A DNA stretch of 64,000 nucleotides, taken from an uncultured Reyranella sp. (lineage in GTDB: Bacteria > Pseudomonadota > Alphaproteobacteria > Reyranellales > Reyranellaceae). The notes beneath the pieces are model-generated. The model had not been told where the DNA came from. It worked only from the letters and a program-made list of their open reading frames with translations, and searched no databases. Location of the stretch: assembly GCF_945957355.1 (NCBI RefSeq), contig NZ_CAMFKM010000003.1, positions 310,001 through 374,000 on the forward strand. The letters run 5' to 3'. The position numbers and the translations under genes are program-made. Every line of letters starts with the position of its first letter. The stretch's first letter is position 1. Shown here piece after piece: positions 26,122 to 44,816 of this stretch.

Positions 26122-26137
26122 TGGCATGATCGCTGCA
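26122..26137 (+). promoter_or_regulatory. candidate sigma-54 promoter of the hydantoinase operon
   Basis: TGGCATGATCGCTGCA matches the RpoN consensus TGGCACG-N4-TTGCW except for two bases; GG and GC are 10 bp apart. A start site near 26147 would give a leader of about 38 nt before ATG 26185. An inverted repeat TGCAAC (26134-26139)/GTTGCA (26154-26159) overlaps its -12 side. Confidence 0.4.
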
Positions 26138-26184
26138 ACCTCATTCCTGGGGTGTTGCAAGAACCGCGCCGAGGAAGGTCGACG

Positions 26185-27141
26185 ATGTCATCAGGAAAGC
26201 TGAACGAGCAGGCAAAGGGCGTTTACATCATCGCCGCCACGCCCTTCACGGACGAGGGCGCGGTCGACCTGCAGAGCGTCGACAGCTTGACCGATTTTTA
26301 TTTGGGCTGCGGCGTACATGGATTCACGCTGCTCGGCATGATGGGCGAGGCGCACAAGCTCACGGCCGACGAATCTCTTTCGGTGGTCAACCGCGTGATC
26401 GGCCGGGCCCAGGGCCGGCAGGTGATCGTGGGTGTAAGCCATGCCGGACTGGAGAACGTTCGTCGTCTCTCGCACGAGGCGATGATGGCTGGCGCCGCCG
26501 GCGTGATGGTCGCGCCGCCTCCCGGCCTCAAGGGCGACGAGGGCCTCTACAATTATTATACGCAGGTCTTCCAGGCGCTCGGCCCGCACATCCCGGTCGT
26601 GTACCAGGATTATCCGCAGACCACCGGTGTCTACTTGCCGGTCAACGTGTTCGAGCGGCTGGTCGACGAGTTCCCGCAACTCGTCATGCTGAAGCACGAG
26701 GACGCACCAGGTCTCGCCAAGCTGACAAAGGTGCGCGAGGGCGAGAAGAAGCCGGGCCGGCGTCGGGTGTCGATACTCGTCGGCAATGGCGGGCTCTACT
26801 ATCCGCAGGAGATGCGTCGCGGCGCCGACGGCGCGATGACCGGCTTTGCCTGGCCCGAGATGCTGGTGCAGGTCTATGACCTCTTCGCTCAGGGAAAGGC
26901 GGAGGAGGCCGAGGACCTGTTCGACATCTATCTGCCCCTGGTGCGCCACGAGGTACAGCCGGCGATCGGCCTGGCGCTGCGCAAGGAAGTGCTGTTCCGG
27001 CGCGGGGCCATCAAGAGCCCGAAGCAGCGGGCGCCCGGTTCGTCGCTGACGGCGGCGGACAAGAGCGAACTCGATGGAATGATTGCGCGCCTCGAGCGGC
27101 GTCTGGCGGCCGCCGGCCGTCTCGCCAAGGCGGCGGAGTAG
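26185..27141 (+). CDS. DapA-family (dihydrodipicolinate synthase/NAL-like) lyase or aldolase
   Basis: A 318-residue class I aldolase-family protein. ATG 26185 with SD GAGGAAGG is preferred to the GTG at 26152. Family features: GVYIIAATPFTDEGAVDL at the N-terminus, GFTLLGMMGEAHKL (substrate carboxylate loop), IPVVYQDYPQTTGVYL (catalytic Tyr) and LVMLKHEDAPG (Schiff-base Lys). The long C-terminal extension after residue 270 is Arg/Ala-rich. It heads the hydantoinase operon, so it probably acts on a 2-oxo acid or pathway product rather than in lysine synthesis; its exact reaction is unknown. Confidence 0.85.
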   Translation: MSSGKLNEQAKGVYIIAATPFTDEGAVDLQSVDSLTDFYLGCGVHGFTLLGMMGEAHKLTADESLSVVNRVIGRAQGRQVIVGVSHAGLENVRRLSHEAMMAGAAGVMVAPPPGLKGDEGLYNYYTQVFQALGPHIPVVYQDYPQTTGVYLPVNVFERLVDEFPQLVMLKHEDAPGLAKLTKVREGEKKPGRRRVSILVGNGGLYYPQEMRRGADGAMTGFAWPEMLVQVYDLFAQGKAEEAEDLFDIYLPLVRHEVQPAIGLALRKEVLFRRGAIKSPKQRAPGSSLTAADKSELDGMIARLERRLAAAGRLAKAAE

Positions 27142-30905: not shown

Positions 30906-30921
30906 TGGCCTCTAAATTGCT
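30906..30921 (+). promoter_or_regulatory. candidate sigma-54 promoter of the amino-acid ABC operon
   Basis: TGGCCTCTAAATTGCT has the -24 TGGC and -12 TTGCT elements with GG and GC exactly 10 bp apart; only the AC of TGGCAC differs. A start site near 30932 gives a leader of about 50 nt to ATG 30983. It lies between the divergent racemase gene and the binding-protein gene. Confidence 0.45.
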
Positions 30922-30982
30922 ATTCAACAATGCCTGATCTAACGTTGCCGCTTGGGGATTTCATGGGAAGGAAACTGAGAAA

Positions 30983-40152: not shown

Positions 40153-40599
40153 ATGAGCGATTTCGTCTTGAGCCATGGTGGTCTGTTCGCCGCCGCCTTC
40201 CTCGCCGCGACGGTGTTTCCCTTCCAGTCCGAACTGGTGCTGGTCGGCCTGCTGGTTGCCGAGCCGACCCATTGGCCCACGCTGCTGCTGGTGGCCAGCG
40301 TGGGCAATACGCTGGGATCGGCAGTCAACTGGGTCCTGGGCCGTTTGATCGAGCGCTACCATGACCGGGCGTGGTTTCCGGTGAAGGCGCGCGATTATGA
40401 GCGCGTCGAGCGCTGGTATGCCCGATGGGGTGTATGGTCCCTGCTGTTCGCATGGTTGCCGTTCGGCGGGGACGCCCTCACCGTGGTGGCCGGCGCGATG
40501 CGAACGCCGCTGCTGCCGTTCCTCGTGCTGGTCGCGATCGGCAAGACGGCCCGGTATGCCGTCCTTGTCGCTGCAACGGTGGGATGGTTCGTCGGGTGA
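40153..40599 (+). CDS. YqaA/DedA-like membrane protein
   Basis: A 148-residue inner-membrane protein of the VTT/SNARE-associated (DedA superfamily) small branch, as in E. coli YqaA. It starts MSDFVLSHGGLFAAAFLAAT and has TVFPFQSELVLVGLL, a glycine-rich helix with VGNTLGSAVNWVLGR, and the amphipathic loop RVERWYARWGVWSLLFAWLPFGGDALTVVAG. Larger relatives act in lipid flipping and membrane energetics; the role here is unknown. The next gene's sigma-54 promoter begins 9 bp after its stop. Confidence 0.85.
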   Translation: MSDFVLSHGGLFAAAFLAATVFPFQSELVLVGLLVAEPTHWPTLLLVASVGNTLGSAVNWVLGRLIERYHDRAWFPVKARDYERVERWYARWGVWSLLFAWLPFGGDALTVVAGAMRTPLLPFLVLVAIGKTARYAVLVAATVGWFVG

Positions 40600-40607
40600 A
40601 AACTGCG

Positions 40608-40623
40608 TGGCACCGAATTTGCT
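40608..40623 (+). promoter_or_regulatory. near-perfect sigma-54 promoter of the SBP/amidohydrolase operon
   Basis: TGGCACCGAATTTGCT fits TGGCAC-N5-TTGCW at every defined position, with GG (40609-40610) and GC (40621-40622) 10 bp apart. A start site near 40633 gives a leader of about 27 nt, with SD GGAGG at 40651 before ATG 40661. It marks this operon as RpoN-dependent and probably nitrogen-controlled. Confidence 0.7.
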
Positions 40624-40660
40624 TCCTCTCGCAGTGCTCGACACGGACAGGGAGGCAGCC

Positions 40661-41659
40661 ATGCAGTCATCATCGTTCCGCCGACGTACCGGATTGGCGG
40701 CGCTTGCGCTGACGCTGCTGTCCGCCATGCCGGCGCTGGCCCAGGACAAGGTCCGCTTCCAGACCGACTGGATCCCGTCAGGCGAGCACGCGATGTACTA
40801 TGGCGCGTGGAGCAAGGGCATCTACGCCAAGCACGGCATCGACATCACCATCACGCGCGGATACGGCTCCGGCGACACGGTCACCAAGGTGGCATCGGGC
40901 GCAGCCGATTTCGGCGTCGCCGACATCGCGGCCGTCATGACGGCAAGGGCCCGCACCAACGTGCCGGTCAAGACCATCGCCGTGCTCTACAATGAATCGC
41001 CGCATTCGCTGTTCGTGCTGAAGAGTTCGGGCATCACGACCTTCAAGGGCCTCGAGGGGAAGAAGATCGGCATTACCCCGGGCAACAGCCATCGCTTCTA
41101 TTTCCCCGAAGTCGCCAAGAAGGCGGGGACCGATCCCAACAAGCTGATCTGGACGAACATGGACGGGGCGGCGATGGCGGCGCAGCTCATCGCCAAGAAC
41201 ATCGATGCCGCGCCGTTCTATTCGATCCATTACTATTACATCAACAAGGCCGCGGTGAAGGCGGGCGAGGAGATCCTGCCGCTGCCGTTCGTCGAGGTCG
41301 GCTTCAAGATCTACGCCGCCTCGCTCATCACCACCGACAAGATGATCCAGGACAAGCCGGACCTGGTGAGGCGTTTCCTGGCCGCGACCAAGGAAGCCTT
41401 CGAATGGGCCGCGGCCAATCCCGAGGAAGCCTGCAAGCTGCATGTCGCGCGCTTTCCCGAGGTCGAGCTCGACGACTGCATGGGCAGCGTGAAGGCGGTG
41501 ATGAAGTTCGTCTTCAACGACCACAGCAAGGAATTCGGCTGGGGCAAGGAAAGCCCGGAGCGGCTCAAGTTCTCGTGGGAGACGATCGCCACGGCGAACG
41601 AGCTGAAGCCCGGGTTCGACTACAAGACCGCGATCGACACGAGCAAGGTCACCAAGTAG
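40661..41659 (+). CDS. NMT1/SsuA-like ABC transporter periplasmic binding protein
   Basis: A 332-residue receptor of the nitrate/sulfonate/taurine/pyrimidine-precursor type. ATG 40661 follows SD GGAGG. Signal peptide FRRRTGLAALALTLLSAMPALAQ, then VRFQTDWIPSGEHAMYYGAW (as in ThiY/RutR-regulated pyrimidine binders), GYGSGDTVTKVASGAADFGVAD and FKGLEGKKIGITPG. It is first in an SBP-ATPase-permease-amidohydrolase operon behind a strong sigma-54 promoter. The W-x-P-S-x-E-H opening suggests an aromatic or pyrimidine-like ligand (inference). Confidence 0.9.
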   Translation: MQSSSFRRRTGLAALALTLLSAMPALAQDKVRFQTDWIPSGEHAMYYGAWSKGIYAKHGIDITITRGYGSGDTVTKVASGAADFGVADIAAVMTARARTNVPVKTIAVLYNESPHSLFVLKSSGITTFKGLEGKKIGITPGNSHRFYFPEVAKKAGTDPNKLIWTNMDGAAMAAQLIAKNIDAAPFYSIHYYYINKAAVKAGEEILPLPFVEVGFKIYAASLITTDKMIQDKPDLVRRFLAATKEAFEWAAANPEEACKLHVARFPEVELDDCMGSVKAVMKFVFNDHSKEFGWGKESPERLKFSWETIATANELKPGFDYKTAIDTSKVTK

Positions 41660-41669
41660 GGGGCGGGAA

Positions 41670-42452
41670 GTGATCTCGCTCAATCGGGTCACGCGCATCT
41701 TCAACAGTCGTGACGGAGACCAGGTCACGGCGCTCCAGGACGTGTCGCTGGAGATCGGCCGCAACGAGTTCATCACTCTCGTGGGGCCCTCGGGCTGCGG
41801 CAAGTCCACCCTGTTGCGCATCGTGGCCGGCCTGATCCTGCCGACGGCGGGCCGGGCCTTCATCGGAGGGCAGGAGATCACCGAGCCGAGGGCGGAAACC
41901 GGGATCGTGTTCCAGGCGCCGACACTGCTGCCCTGGGCCAGCGTGCTCGACAACGTGCTGTTCCCGCTGCGCATGATGCACCGCATCGATTCCACCAGCA
42001 CCGACAAGGCGATGGCGCTACTCAAGCTGGTCGGCCTCCAGGGCTTCGAAGGCAAGTCGCCGCGCGAGCTGTCGGGCGGGATGCAGCAGCGGGTCGCCAT
42101 CTGCCGGGCGCTGGTGCACGATCCGGACATCCTGCTGATGGACGAGCCGTTCGGGGCGCTCGACGCGCTGACGCGCGAAGAGATGACCATGGAGCTGCTG
42201 CGCATCTGGAGCGAGCGGCCCAAGACCGTGCTGTTCGTGACGCACTCGATCACGGAGGCCGTTGTGCTGGCCGATCGCGTGGTCGTGATGTCGCCGCGGC
42301 CCGGCCGGATCGCCGAGATCATCGATATCGGCCTGCCGCGCCCGCGCAGCTTCGAGACGGAGGCCTCGCCGGAATTCCACGAGGCCAGCCAGCGCATCCG
42401 CCAACTCATCTTCGGAACACGCCATGTCGGTCCAGGCCGCGCCGCCGCTTGA
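41670..42452 (+). CDS. SsuB/TauB-like ABC transporter ATP-binding protein
   Basis: A 260-residue ATPase with GTG start 41670. Walker A is GPSGCGKSTLLRIVAG, the signature LSGGMQQRVAICRAL, Walker B DILLMDEPFGALD, and the switch His is in LFVTHSITEAVVLADRVVVM. LPWASVLDNVLFPLRM is typical of the nitrate/taurine importer ATPases. The 3' end overlaps the permease gene by 29 bp. Confidence 0.94.
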   Translation: MISLNRVTRIFNSRDGDQVTALQDVSLEIGRNEFITLVGPSGCGKSTLLRIVAGLILPTAGRAFIGGQEITEPRAETGIVFQAPTLLPWASVLDNVLFPLRMMHRIDSTSTDKAMALLKLVGLQGFEGKSPRELSGGMQQRVAICRALVHDPDILLMDEPFGALDALTREEMTMELLRIWSERPKTVLFVTHSITEAVVLADRVVVMSPRPGRIAEIIDIGLPRPRSFETEASPEFHEASQRIRQLIFGTRHVGPGRAAA

Positions 42453-43254
42453 AGAGCGGCCGAAGCCGCCCCGACGACGAAGGAGGAGCGCCGCCCTCTA
42501 TGAGATGGTGGTGCCGCTGCTGGCCACGATCGGGCTGTTCGTGGCATGGGAGGGCGCTTGCCGCCTCTTCCAGATTCCTGGCTATCTCGTGCCGTCGCCG
42601 GTCGATATCTGGAACGAAACGATGGCCATCGGCCCCACCGTGGCCGGCCATACGATGGCGACCTTCAAGACCGTCATGCTGGGGTTCGTGGTCTCGATCC
42701 TCATCAGCCTGCCGCTGGCGGTAGTCCTCACCGCTTCGCCCGCCATCGCGGCGGCCGTCTATCCCTTCCTGGTCTGGACCCAGTCGATCCCCAAGGTAGC
42801 GCTCGCTCCGATCCTCGTGGTGTTGCTCGGAACCAACGAATTGCCGCGCATCGTCATCACCGTGCTGGTGGCGTTCTTCCCGCTGGTCATCTCGATCGCG
42901 ACCGGGCTCCTCTCGGTACCTCCGGAGCTGATCGAACTGAGCCGTGCCTGCCGCGCCTCGAAGCTCAGCGAGTTGCTGCGGATCAGGCTACCCTATGCGA
43001 TTCCCTTCATCTTCGCAGGCCTCAAGGTCGCGATCTCGCTCGCCGTTGTCGGCGCCGTCGTCGCCGAGTTCGTCAACGCCGATGCCGGATTGGGTTTCCT
43101 GATCCAGACCTCGACGGCGTTCTTCAAGGTGCCCGTGGCATTCGGGGCACTTATCATCCTGTCGGTGATGGGTGTCGTTCTGTTCCAGATCGTGGTGGTC
43201 GCCGAACGGGTGTTCTTCCCATGGTCGAGCAGCAATGCGACTCCGGGTGCCTGA
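42424..43254 (+). CDS. SsuC/TauC-like ABC transporter permease
   Basis: A 276-residue permease with a Pro/Arg-rich cytoplasmic N-terminus (PPLEERPKPPRRRRRSAA) and about six helices. The family motifs are FVVSILISLPLAVVLTAS, WTQSIPKVALAPILVVLLG and the EAA loop LIELSRACRASKLSELLRIRL. It overlaps the ATPase gene by 29 bp, so translation is coupled. The amidohydrolase gene begins 26 bp downstream. Confidence 0.92.
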   Translation: MSVQAAPPLEERPKPPRRRRRSAALYEMVVPLLATIGLFVAWEGACRLFQIPGYLVPSPVDIWNETMAIGPTVAGHTMATFKTVMLGFVVSILISLPLAVVLTASPAIAAAVYPFLVWTQSIPKVALAPILVVLLGTNELPRIVITVLVAFFPLVISIATGLLSVPPELIELSRACRASKLSELLRIRLPYAIPFIFAGLKVAISLAVVGAVVAEFVNADAGLGFLIQTSTAFFKVPVAFGALIILSVMGVVLFQIVVVAERVFFPWSSSNATPGA

Positions 43255-43280
43255 CCGACTGCGCAAGGGGAGTGTGTGAT

Positions 43281-44816
43281 ATGGCGAAAGCCTCCAAAGC
43301 CTCGATGACCGTGATCCGCGGCGGCCGCGTGGTGGACATCAAGGGGCATGCGGCCCCCAAGGCCGACATCCTGGTGAACGGCGATACCATCATGGAGATC
43401 GGGACGAAGGTCTCGGCGCCGGAGTCGGCCACCGTGATCGACGCCAGGGGCAAGCTGCTGCATCCCGGCCTGATCAACGGCCACACGCACAGCCACGGCA
43501 ACCTCGCCAAGGGCATGGTCGACCGCGTGACTCTCGAGCTGCTGCTGACGGCTGGCCCCTACATGAGCGGCGCTCGCACGCTCGAGGACAAGTACCTGTC
43601 GAGCCTGATCGGGGCTGCTGAGATGGTGATGAAAGGCTGCACCGCAGCCTATGACCTGGCGGCCGAGTTCCCCATGCCGACGGCTGAGGGCCTCGCTGCG
43701 ATCGGGCAGGCTTATGCCGATGTCGGCATGCGGGCCATGCTGGCGCCGATGGTCGCCGACACCAGCTTCTTCGAGGCGATCCCGGGCCTGATGGAGCAGC
43801 TGCCGCGGTCACTGCAGAAGGAGGTCGAGGCCTATAGGTTCTCGCCCTACAAGGCGAGCGTGAAGCAGATGAAGAAGGCGCTGCACGGCTGGAAGCTCGA
43901 CCGCCTGGGCGTTCATCTGGCGGTCGCGCCGACCATCCCGCATCACTGCAGCCGGGAGTTCCTGCTGGCCTGCCTGAAGCTCGCCAAGGACTACGATACC
44001 GGTCTTCATACCCATGTCTCCGAATCGAAAGTGCAGGTGATCGCCGGCTACCGGCTCTACGGGACTTCGCTCACCGCCTACATGGACTCGCTGGGCCTCG
44101 TCGGACCGAAGTTCACCGTGGCGCACGGTGTGTGGCTCGACGGGGACGACATGAAGCTGCTCGGCGACAAGGGGGCTTCGGTCTCGCATAATCCCGGCTC
44201 GAACATGGTGCTGGGCAACGGCATCGCCGACATGCGGGGCATGCTGGATGCCAAGGTCAATGTCGGCATCGGGACGGATGGCGCGAGCTGTTCGGACAAT
44301 CAGAACATGTACGAGAACATGCGGCTGGCTTCGATGGTCTCCAAGGTGCAGGGGCCGGATAACCGCGAGTGGATCACGACCGAGGAAGTGCTGCATGCGG
44401 CGACGGCGGGCAGCGCGCGGGCGCTGGGGCTCGGCGACAGGATCGGCAAACTGGAGGCTAGCTACAAGGCCGACATCGTGTTCCTCGACCTCGGGCACAT
44501 CAACTGGATCCCGTTCAATGATCCGACCAACCAGATCGTCCATACCGAGGACGGTTCCGCCGTGCATTCGGTGATGGTCGGCGGTCGCATGATCCTCGAG
44601 GACCGCAAGCTGCTGAACGTCGACATGGCCCAGCTTGCCCGCCTGGCCGAGAAGGCGCGGGAGCGGCTGGAGCGGGGCCGCAAGCCCGCCAAGGCGCTCT
44701 ACGACAAGCTCGAGAAGGTGGTGAACACGTTCTGTCCGGGGCTCGCCAAGCAGCCGCTACATATCGACCGGTTCGGCGGCGGGCACCATCACGGCCACCA
44801 CCCGCATCACCACTAG
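43281..44816 (+). CDS. metal-dependent amidohydrolase with His-rich C-terminal tail
   Basis: A 511-residue hydrolase/deaminase of the TrzA/MtaD/SsnA branch; the start is ATG 43281 (MAKASKASMTVIRGG) with AAGGGGAG upstream. Metal ligands are in NGHTHSHGN (HxH), LHTHVSES, VAHGVWLDGDD and GIGTDGASCSDN. The C-terminus ends GGGHHHGHHPHHH, nine His in 13 residues, which is not part of the catalytic fold and may store or acquire zinc. It is encoded as the last gene of the sigma-54 importer operon, so it probably deaminates or dechlorinates the imported heterocycle. Its stop shares CTAG with the convergent gene. Confidence 0.88.
   Translation: MAKASKASMTVIRGGRVVDIKGHAAPKADILVNGDTIMEIGTKVSAPESATVIDARGKLLHPGLINGHTHSHGNLAKGMVDRVTLELLLTAGPYMSGARTLEDKYLSSLIGAAEMVMKGCTAAYDLAAEFPMPTAEGLAAIGQAYADVGMRAMLAPMVADTSFFEAIPGLMEQLPRSLQKEVEAYRFSPYKASVKQMKKALHGWKLDRLGVHLAVAPTIPHHCSREFLLACLKLAKDYDTGLHTHVSESKVQVIAGYRLYGTSLTAYMDSLGLVGPKFTVAHGVWLDGDDMKLLGDKGASVSHNPGSNMVLGNGIADMRGMLDAKVNVGIGTDGASCSDNQNMYENMRLASMVSKVQGPDNREWITTEEVLHAATAGSARALGLGDRIGKLEASYKADIVFLDLGHINWIPFNDPTNQIVHTEDGSAVHSVMVGGRMILEDRKLLNVDMAQLARLAEKARERLERGRKPAKALYDKLEKVVNTFCPGLAKQPLHIDRFGGGHHHGHHPHHH

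Follow-up and report, generated by a model that had tools for sequence, protein, structure and literature searches.

NtrC and sigma-54 are familiar from enteric bacteria as regulators of nitrogen uptake and ring catabolism, acting at promoters of the E. coli rutABCDEFG type (PMC8743547). In the alphaproteobacterium Caulobacter, ntrB-ntrC also controls glnK and nitrogen assimilation; its NtrC and NtrX are both reported to lack GAFTGA, and its NtrC is reported to act at sigma-70 promoters (PMC10274813). A further point of comparison is the ThiY/THI5 (NMT1) group of pyrimidine-binding importers. A literature search found no study of NtrC in Reyranella.

Here we describe a promoter and its operon in a 64,000-nucleotide stretch of DNA (the window; sites and genes given with window coordinates lie on the plus strand) from an uncultured Reyranella sp., whose genome comprises 5.79 Mb in 50 contigs and is 99.88% complete; a homology scan against named genomes places its relatives in Reyranella. 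Like the enteric systems, this genome has -24/-12 promoters, rpoN and ntrB/ntrC that appear to govern nitrogen uptake and the breakdown of ring compounds, and its rutA genes also have such a site. The operon, however, is a different one—an NMT1-type importer with a TRZ/ATZ amidohydrolase—and the genome differs further in a putative autoregulatory site at rpoN and in the lack of a detected TGCACCA-N3-TGGTGCA enhancer upstream of the operon. In contrast to its Caulobacter counterpart, Reyranella NtrC carries GAFTGA. The binding protein belongs to the same Pfam family as ThiY and THI5, which are among its nearest solved sequences, but it is tied to an amidohydrolase and a predicted sigma-54 promoter, not to a thiamine pathway. 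That this is a sigma-54/NtrC promoter is well supported by the sequence comparisons; it is of an ordinary, well-known kind and new in its location.

The site at 40608-40623 and its operon

The sequence TGGCACCGAATTTGCT, read directly in the window at 40608-40623, matches the sigma-54 consensus TGGCACNNNNNTTGCW at 11 of 11 defined bases with 0 mismatches, and it is the only perfect match on either strand of the window (0.02 expected from dinucleotide shuffles). Scored with an approximate RpoN matrix, it reaches 17.8, against 13.4 for the next-best site in the window. The original prediction of a near-perfect sigma-54 site at this position is thereby confirmed. Its -24 element, TGGCAC, occupies 40608-40613 (GG at 40609-40610), and its -12 element, TTGCT, occupies 40619-40623 (GC at 40621-40622); TGG and TGC are each invariant in 23 of 23 aligned orthologous rows. 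The spacing rule that places GG at -25/-24 and GC at -13/-12 predicts a transcription start at 40634. Downstream, a ribosome-binding site, GGGAGG (40650-40655), lies 5 nt before the ATG at 40661, which is 37 nt past the end of the sigma-54 site; GGGAGG-like sequence is found in most orthologues. No sigma-70-like promoter pair was seen adjoining the site.

Four genes follow: an NMT1/THI5-like periplasmic binding protein (40661-41659; Pfam NMT1, 1.6e-45; nearest PDB sequences 4nmy, THI5/THI13, and ThiY), an ABC transporter ATPase (41670-42452; taurine/nitrate-type subfamily by best hits, all of them below cut-off), an ABC transporter permease (42424-43254), and a TRZ/ATZ-type amidohydrolase of the cytosine/guanine deaminase-like superfamily (43254-44816; Pfam Amidohydro_1, 1.7e-55; start codon uncertain). 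The nearest solved structures to the amidohydrolase in the PDB are MTA/SAH deaminase, atrazine chlorohydrolase, 8-oxoguanine deaminase, and triazine hydrolase. None of the operon's proteins reaches an NCBIfam equivalog cut-off, and a substrate assignment for the amidohydrolase was dropped because every NCBIfam hit fell below its cut-off. Upstream lies a VTT-domain (DedA-like) gene (40153-40599), whose stop codon is separated from the start of the site by 8 nt; some relatives retain the promoter but lack this gene or carry it elsewhere.

Orthologues of the binding protein occur in 32 of 121 genomes, mostly Reyranella, and the genus set comprises 27 loci including that of the source genome. Thirteen of these loci have a perfect site and six a site with one mismatch (19 of 27 at one mismatch or fewer); three more carry a site with 2-3 mismatches at the corresponding position, where the remaining five have none (a match at -88 in L046 is probably unrelated). 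Across 23 aligned rows the mean column entropy is 0.27 bit for the 11 core positions, 0.94 for the spacer, and 1.59 for 40 flanking columns, and none of 20000 random column permutations gave a core as low; anchoring the rows on the site biases toward the core, while an unanchored alignment places the same columns together. Almost every locus read has the four genes linked. The site is retained at loci where the DedA gene is not immediately upstream. A Rhodobacteraceae MAG at 65% identity, in which these four genes also occur, carries TGGCACGGCTTTTGCG upstream. This conserved core on diverged flanks bears out the proposal that the importer and amidohydrolase are served by a sigma-54 promoter; however, with five of 27 genus orthologues lacking the site, and three of the five sharing another upstream block, such regulation is not universal. 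The shared block, in L044, L045, and L046, reads roughly CATA-N-C-TGT...TATGGGATATGTC and suggests a promoter switch.

Sigma-54 sites across the genome and their likely activator

Perfect sites number 8 in the genome, against 2 for the reversed pattern, and the form TGGCAY-N5-TTGCW occurs 17 times against 4. With positions judged by reading, 15 of these 17 lie shortly upstream of gene starts (the exceptions are C11:148694 and C32:4957), as do none of the 4 reversed controls. The genes behind them include glnK-amtB, rpoN, and two rutA—which serve as positive controls—as well as Bmp, NMT1, TRAP, and TctC binding proteins. Across the genus the same form is found 635 times against 199 reversed (46 genomes, summed by hand). 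Sites with one mismatch were rejected as regulon members; they number 118 in the genome against 171 in the reversed control and so carry no weight alone.

The single rpoN gene (one Sigma54_DBD match; three sigma-54 domains above cut-off) has a perfect site 46 nt before its start codon (L015 4725-4740; G000:C2:370724), which suggests that it is autoregulated. Both rutA-like pyrimidine monooxygenase genes lie directly behind TGGCATG-N4-TTGCT (L138 2055 and L282 1501); one copy scores above the TIGR03612 cut-off and the second was identified by sequence. A separate observation concerns L146 2056 and L147 2009, where identical sites, TTGCACGCATCTTGCA, each stand upstream of a MNER-LR-L-KVKA protein; TTGCACGCATCTTGCA is a recurring element that departs from the sigma-54 consensus at one base.

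The original prediction of one RpoN regulon over 20 kb of the window holds for 40608 and, as described below, for a site at 30906, but not for one at 26122, and it was drawn too narrowly, given 15 of 17 promoter-placed sites genome-wide. The predicted nitrogen regulon spans the genome, with about 15 strong sites, and is not a 20-kb cluster.

The inventory of possible activators is short. Matches to PF00158 in the genome are NtrC, NtrX, and a weak third that is ClpB by sequence; further stretches encoding GAFTGA were excluded, as they are not PF00158 proteins. NtrC (TIGR01818 score 691.7; cut-off 558.6) has the receiver-domain (REC) Asp, GAFTGA, and, as its Walker B, the normal FLDE, and its gene is adjoined by that for NtrB, which falls narrowly under the cut-off of its model (L019 8030-9505 and 9502-10611). 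NtrX, assigned above a curated cut-off, has ELFGTDGDTEAEALRVSGAFE in place of GAFTGA and a degenerate Walker B (LKE for LDE). The report that Caulobacter NtrC has no GAFTGA makes its presence in Reyranella NtrC a meaningful check. The original prediction, which named NtrC as the likely activator, had considered activator genes of the window alone; over the whole genome NtrC is the one good candidate. It remains the likely activator, as it alone bears GAFTGA, although no NtrC box was found.

Putting these elements together, RNA polymerase with sigma-54 would read the -24/-12 promoter at 40608-40623, and under nitrogen limitation phosphorylated NtrC—the sole GAFTGA-bearing enhancer-binding protein found—would open it. 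The resulting transcript would carry the binding protein, ATPase, permease, and amidohydrolase, whose products may import and hydrolyse a nitrogenous compound, probably ring-shaped. The promoter would count among the roughly 15 strong sites of a genome-wide nitrogen regulon that also takes in glnK-amtB, rpoN, and two rutA genes.

Two weaker sites and a putative ring-compound cluster

Two further sigma-54 sites had been proposed in the window, near 26.2 and 31.0 kb: TGGCATGATCGCTGCA at 26122-26137 and TGGCCTCTAAATTGCT at 30906-30921, each with 2 mismatches to the consensus. The window holds 20 sites with two mismatches or fewer, against 25.6 expected by chance, so by sequence alone neither can be told from noise.

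Comparison supports the site at 30906, which lies in the intergenic stretch that separates a divergent Asp/Glu/hydantoin racemase gene from a family-3 binding-protein ABC operon. Among orthologous upstream regions, 61 of 70 have a GG/GC-bearing site with at most two mismatches, most commonly TGGCCTCTAAATTGCT or TGGCCCCTAAATTGCT. Outside the genus but within the family (L189, L194, L195, L200, L212, L213), both elements are kept while the flanks differ: L189 has a perfect site, TGGCACCTGAATTGCA, L194 and L195 have TGGCCCCTGAATTGCA, L200 has TGGCCCGTCGTTTGCT, and L212 and L213 are of the TGGCACGC type. As it is conserved into other genera and once perfect, we take the site as a real sigma-54 promoter, probably weak in this genome. 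Hydantoin racemase is among the enriched targets in a survey of sigma-54 regulons (PMC12316311). The stretch 30906-30980 contains ATTGCTATTCAACAATGCCTGATCTAACGT, which includes both an imperfect palindrome across the -12 element and the pair TTGCTA-N17-TAACGT. Because conservation here reaches well past the sigma-54 core, a further regulator or an overlapping second promoter may also act at this position.

The site at 26122 fares differently. Its TGGCATGAT half is conserved, but many orthologues lack the -12 GC. Of 62 orthologues, 54 retain TGGCAYRAT, and only 36 of the 54 also have the GC; the 18 without it include other genera, and several of these have an ATG about 10 nt later. In many orthologues TCGACA-N16-CATGAT fits a sigma-70 promoter, and the proposed site is better read as its extended -10 (TGG-CATGAT). 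Since the two elements are not jointly conserved, we do not count 26122 as RpoN-dependent, and the proposed site near 26.2 kb was not borne out. A genuine weak sigma-54 promoter here, which would bring all three operons into one RpoN regulon, could draw on the full TGGCATGATCGCTGCA in 25 of 62 orthologues and on TGGCACAATCGCTGCA at this position in L100 and L219; against the losses of GC and the sigma-70 fit, we consider it unlikely. A double role for sigma-54 and sigma-70 may exist in the window's own lineage. In 26122-26186 and its orthologues, a conserved TGGCATGATC stands shortly before the ATG. Some relatives have it about 10 nt away, which hints at leaderless transcripts in them.

Between 26 and 34 kb, the neighbouring cluster has genes for a DHDPS-like lyase, a D-hydantoinase/dihydropyrimidinase (which scores above cut-off), a nitrilase-family amidase, a flavin reductase, and the family-3 importer. 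Directly after the importer-amidohydrolase operon, G003 has this cluster and G080 the DHDPS-like gene. This linkage and the cluster's enzymes support a common function of operon and cluster on nitrogenous ring compounds. The proposed theme of heterocyclic nitrogen scavenging is plausible from the enzyme families, with a ring compound as the putative substrate of the importer and amidohydrolase.

Competing explanations and meaning for Reyranella

We consider it very probable that 40608-40623 is a functional, NtrC-opened sigma-54 promoter of a nitrogen importer/amidohydrolase operon within a genome-wide regulon. The site, its conservation, the operon, and the set of rpoN and activator genes are read from sequence; NtrC binding, induction by nitrogen limitation, and the substrate are the parts we infer. 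The site could instead depend on sigma-54 but be opened by NtrX, or by an unassembled or unrecognised activator that possibly answers a non-nitrogen signal. The NtrC-box scan leaves room for this: in the 350 bp upstream of 40608 no NtrC box (TGCACCA-N3-TGGTGCA) scores above background (best 10 of 14), although the glnK control fails likewise, as do the other mapped sites of the genome and window. Some Reyranella genomes also carry 3 or 4 PF00158 proteins, and the assembly in 50 contigs could hide a gene. A separate search for TGC-N11-GCA dyads in the 400 bp upstream gave none at 40608 and one at the Bmp promoter. Yet at 99.88% completeness NtrC and NtrX are the only real PF00158 hits, and NtrX has neither GAFTGA nor an intact Walker B. 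By hand count, 22 of 31 good Reyranella genomes have exactly two PF00158 proteins; more are found in seven. Another activator is thus quite improbable.

Far less probable still is a chance match or relic, with the operon transcribed by read-through or from an unrecognised sigma-70 promoter. The VTT-domain gene, on the same strand and ending 8 nt before the site, would permit read-through, and one-mismatch sites are not enriched in the genome (118 against 171); but perfect sites outnumber their reversed control (8 against 2), the core is conserved across strongly diverged flanks and varied upstream contexts, and no sigma-70-like pair lies near 40608.

With NtrC as the preferred activator, the results provide a testable, sequence-defined nitrogen regulon for the alphaproteobacterial genus Reyranella. 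Comparing orthologues shows how a genuine weak RpoN site such as 30906 can be told from a look-alike such as 26122, and the operon offers an entry point to the substrate of an NMT1-type importer linked with a TRZ/ATZ amidohydrolase. With so simple a set of activators, a single ntrC deletion should shut off all sigma-54 promoters. We lean toward the view that in this Reyranella genome, and perhaps in most of the genus, sigma-54 has a single competent activator, NtrC, which would make RpoN effectively a dedicated nitrogen-scavenging sigma factor, acting on its own gene and on numerous importer operons, among them the one described here.
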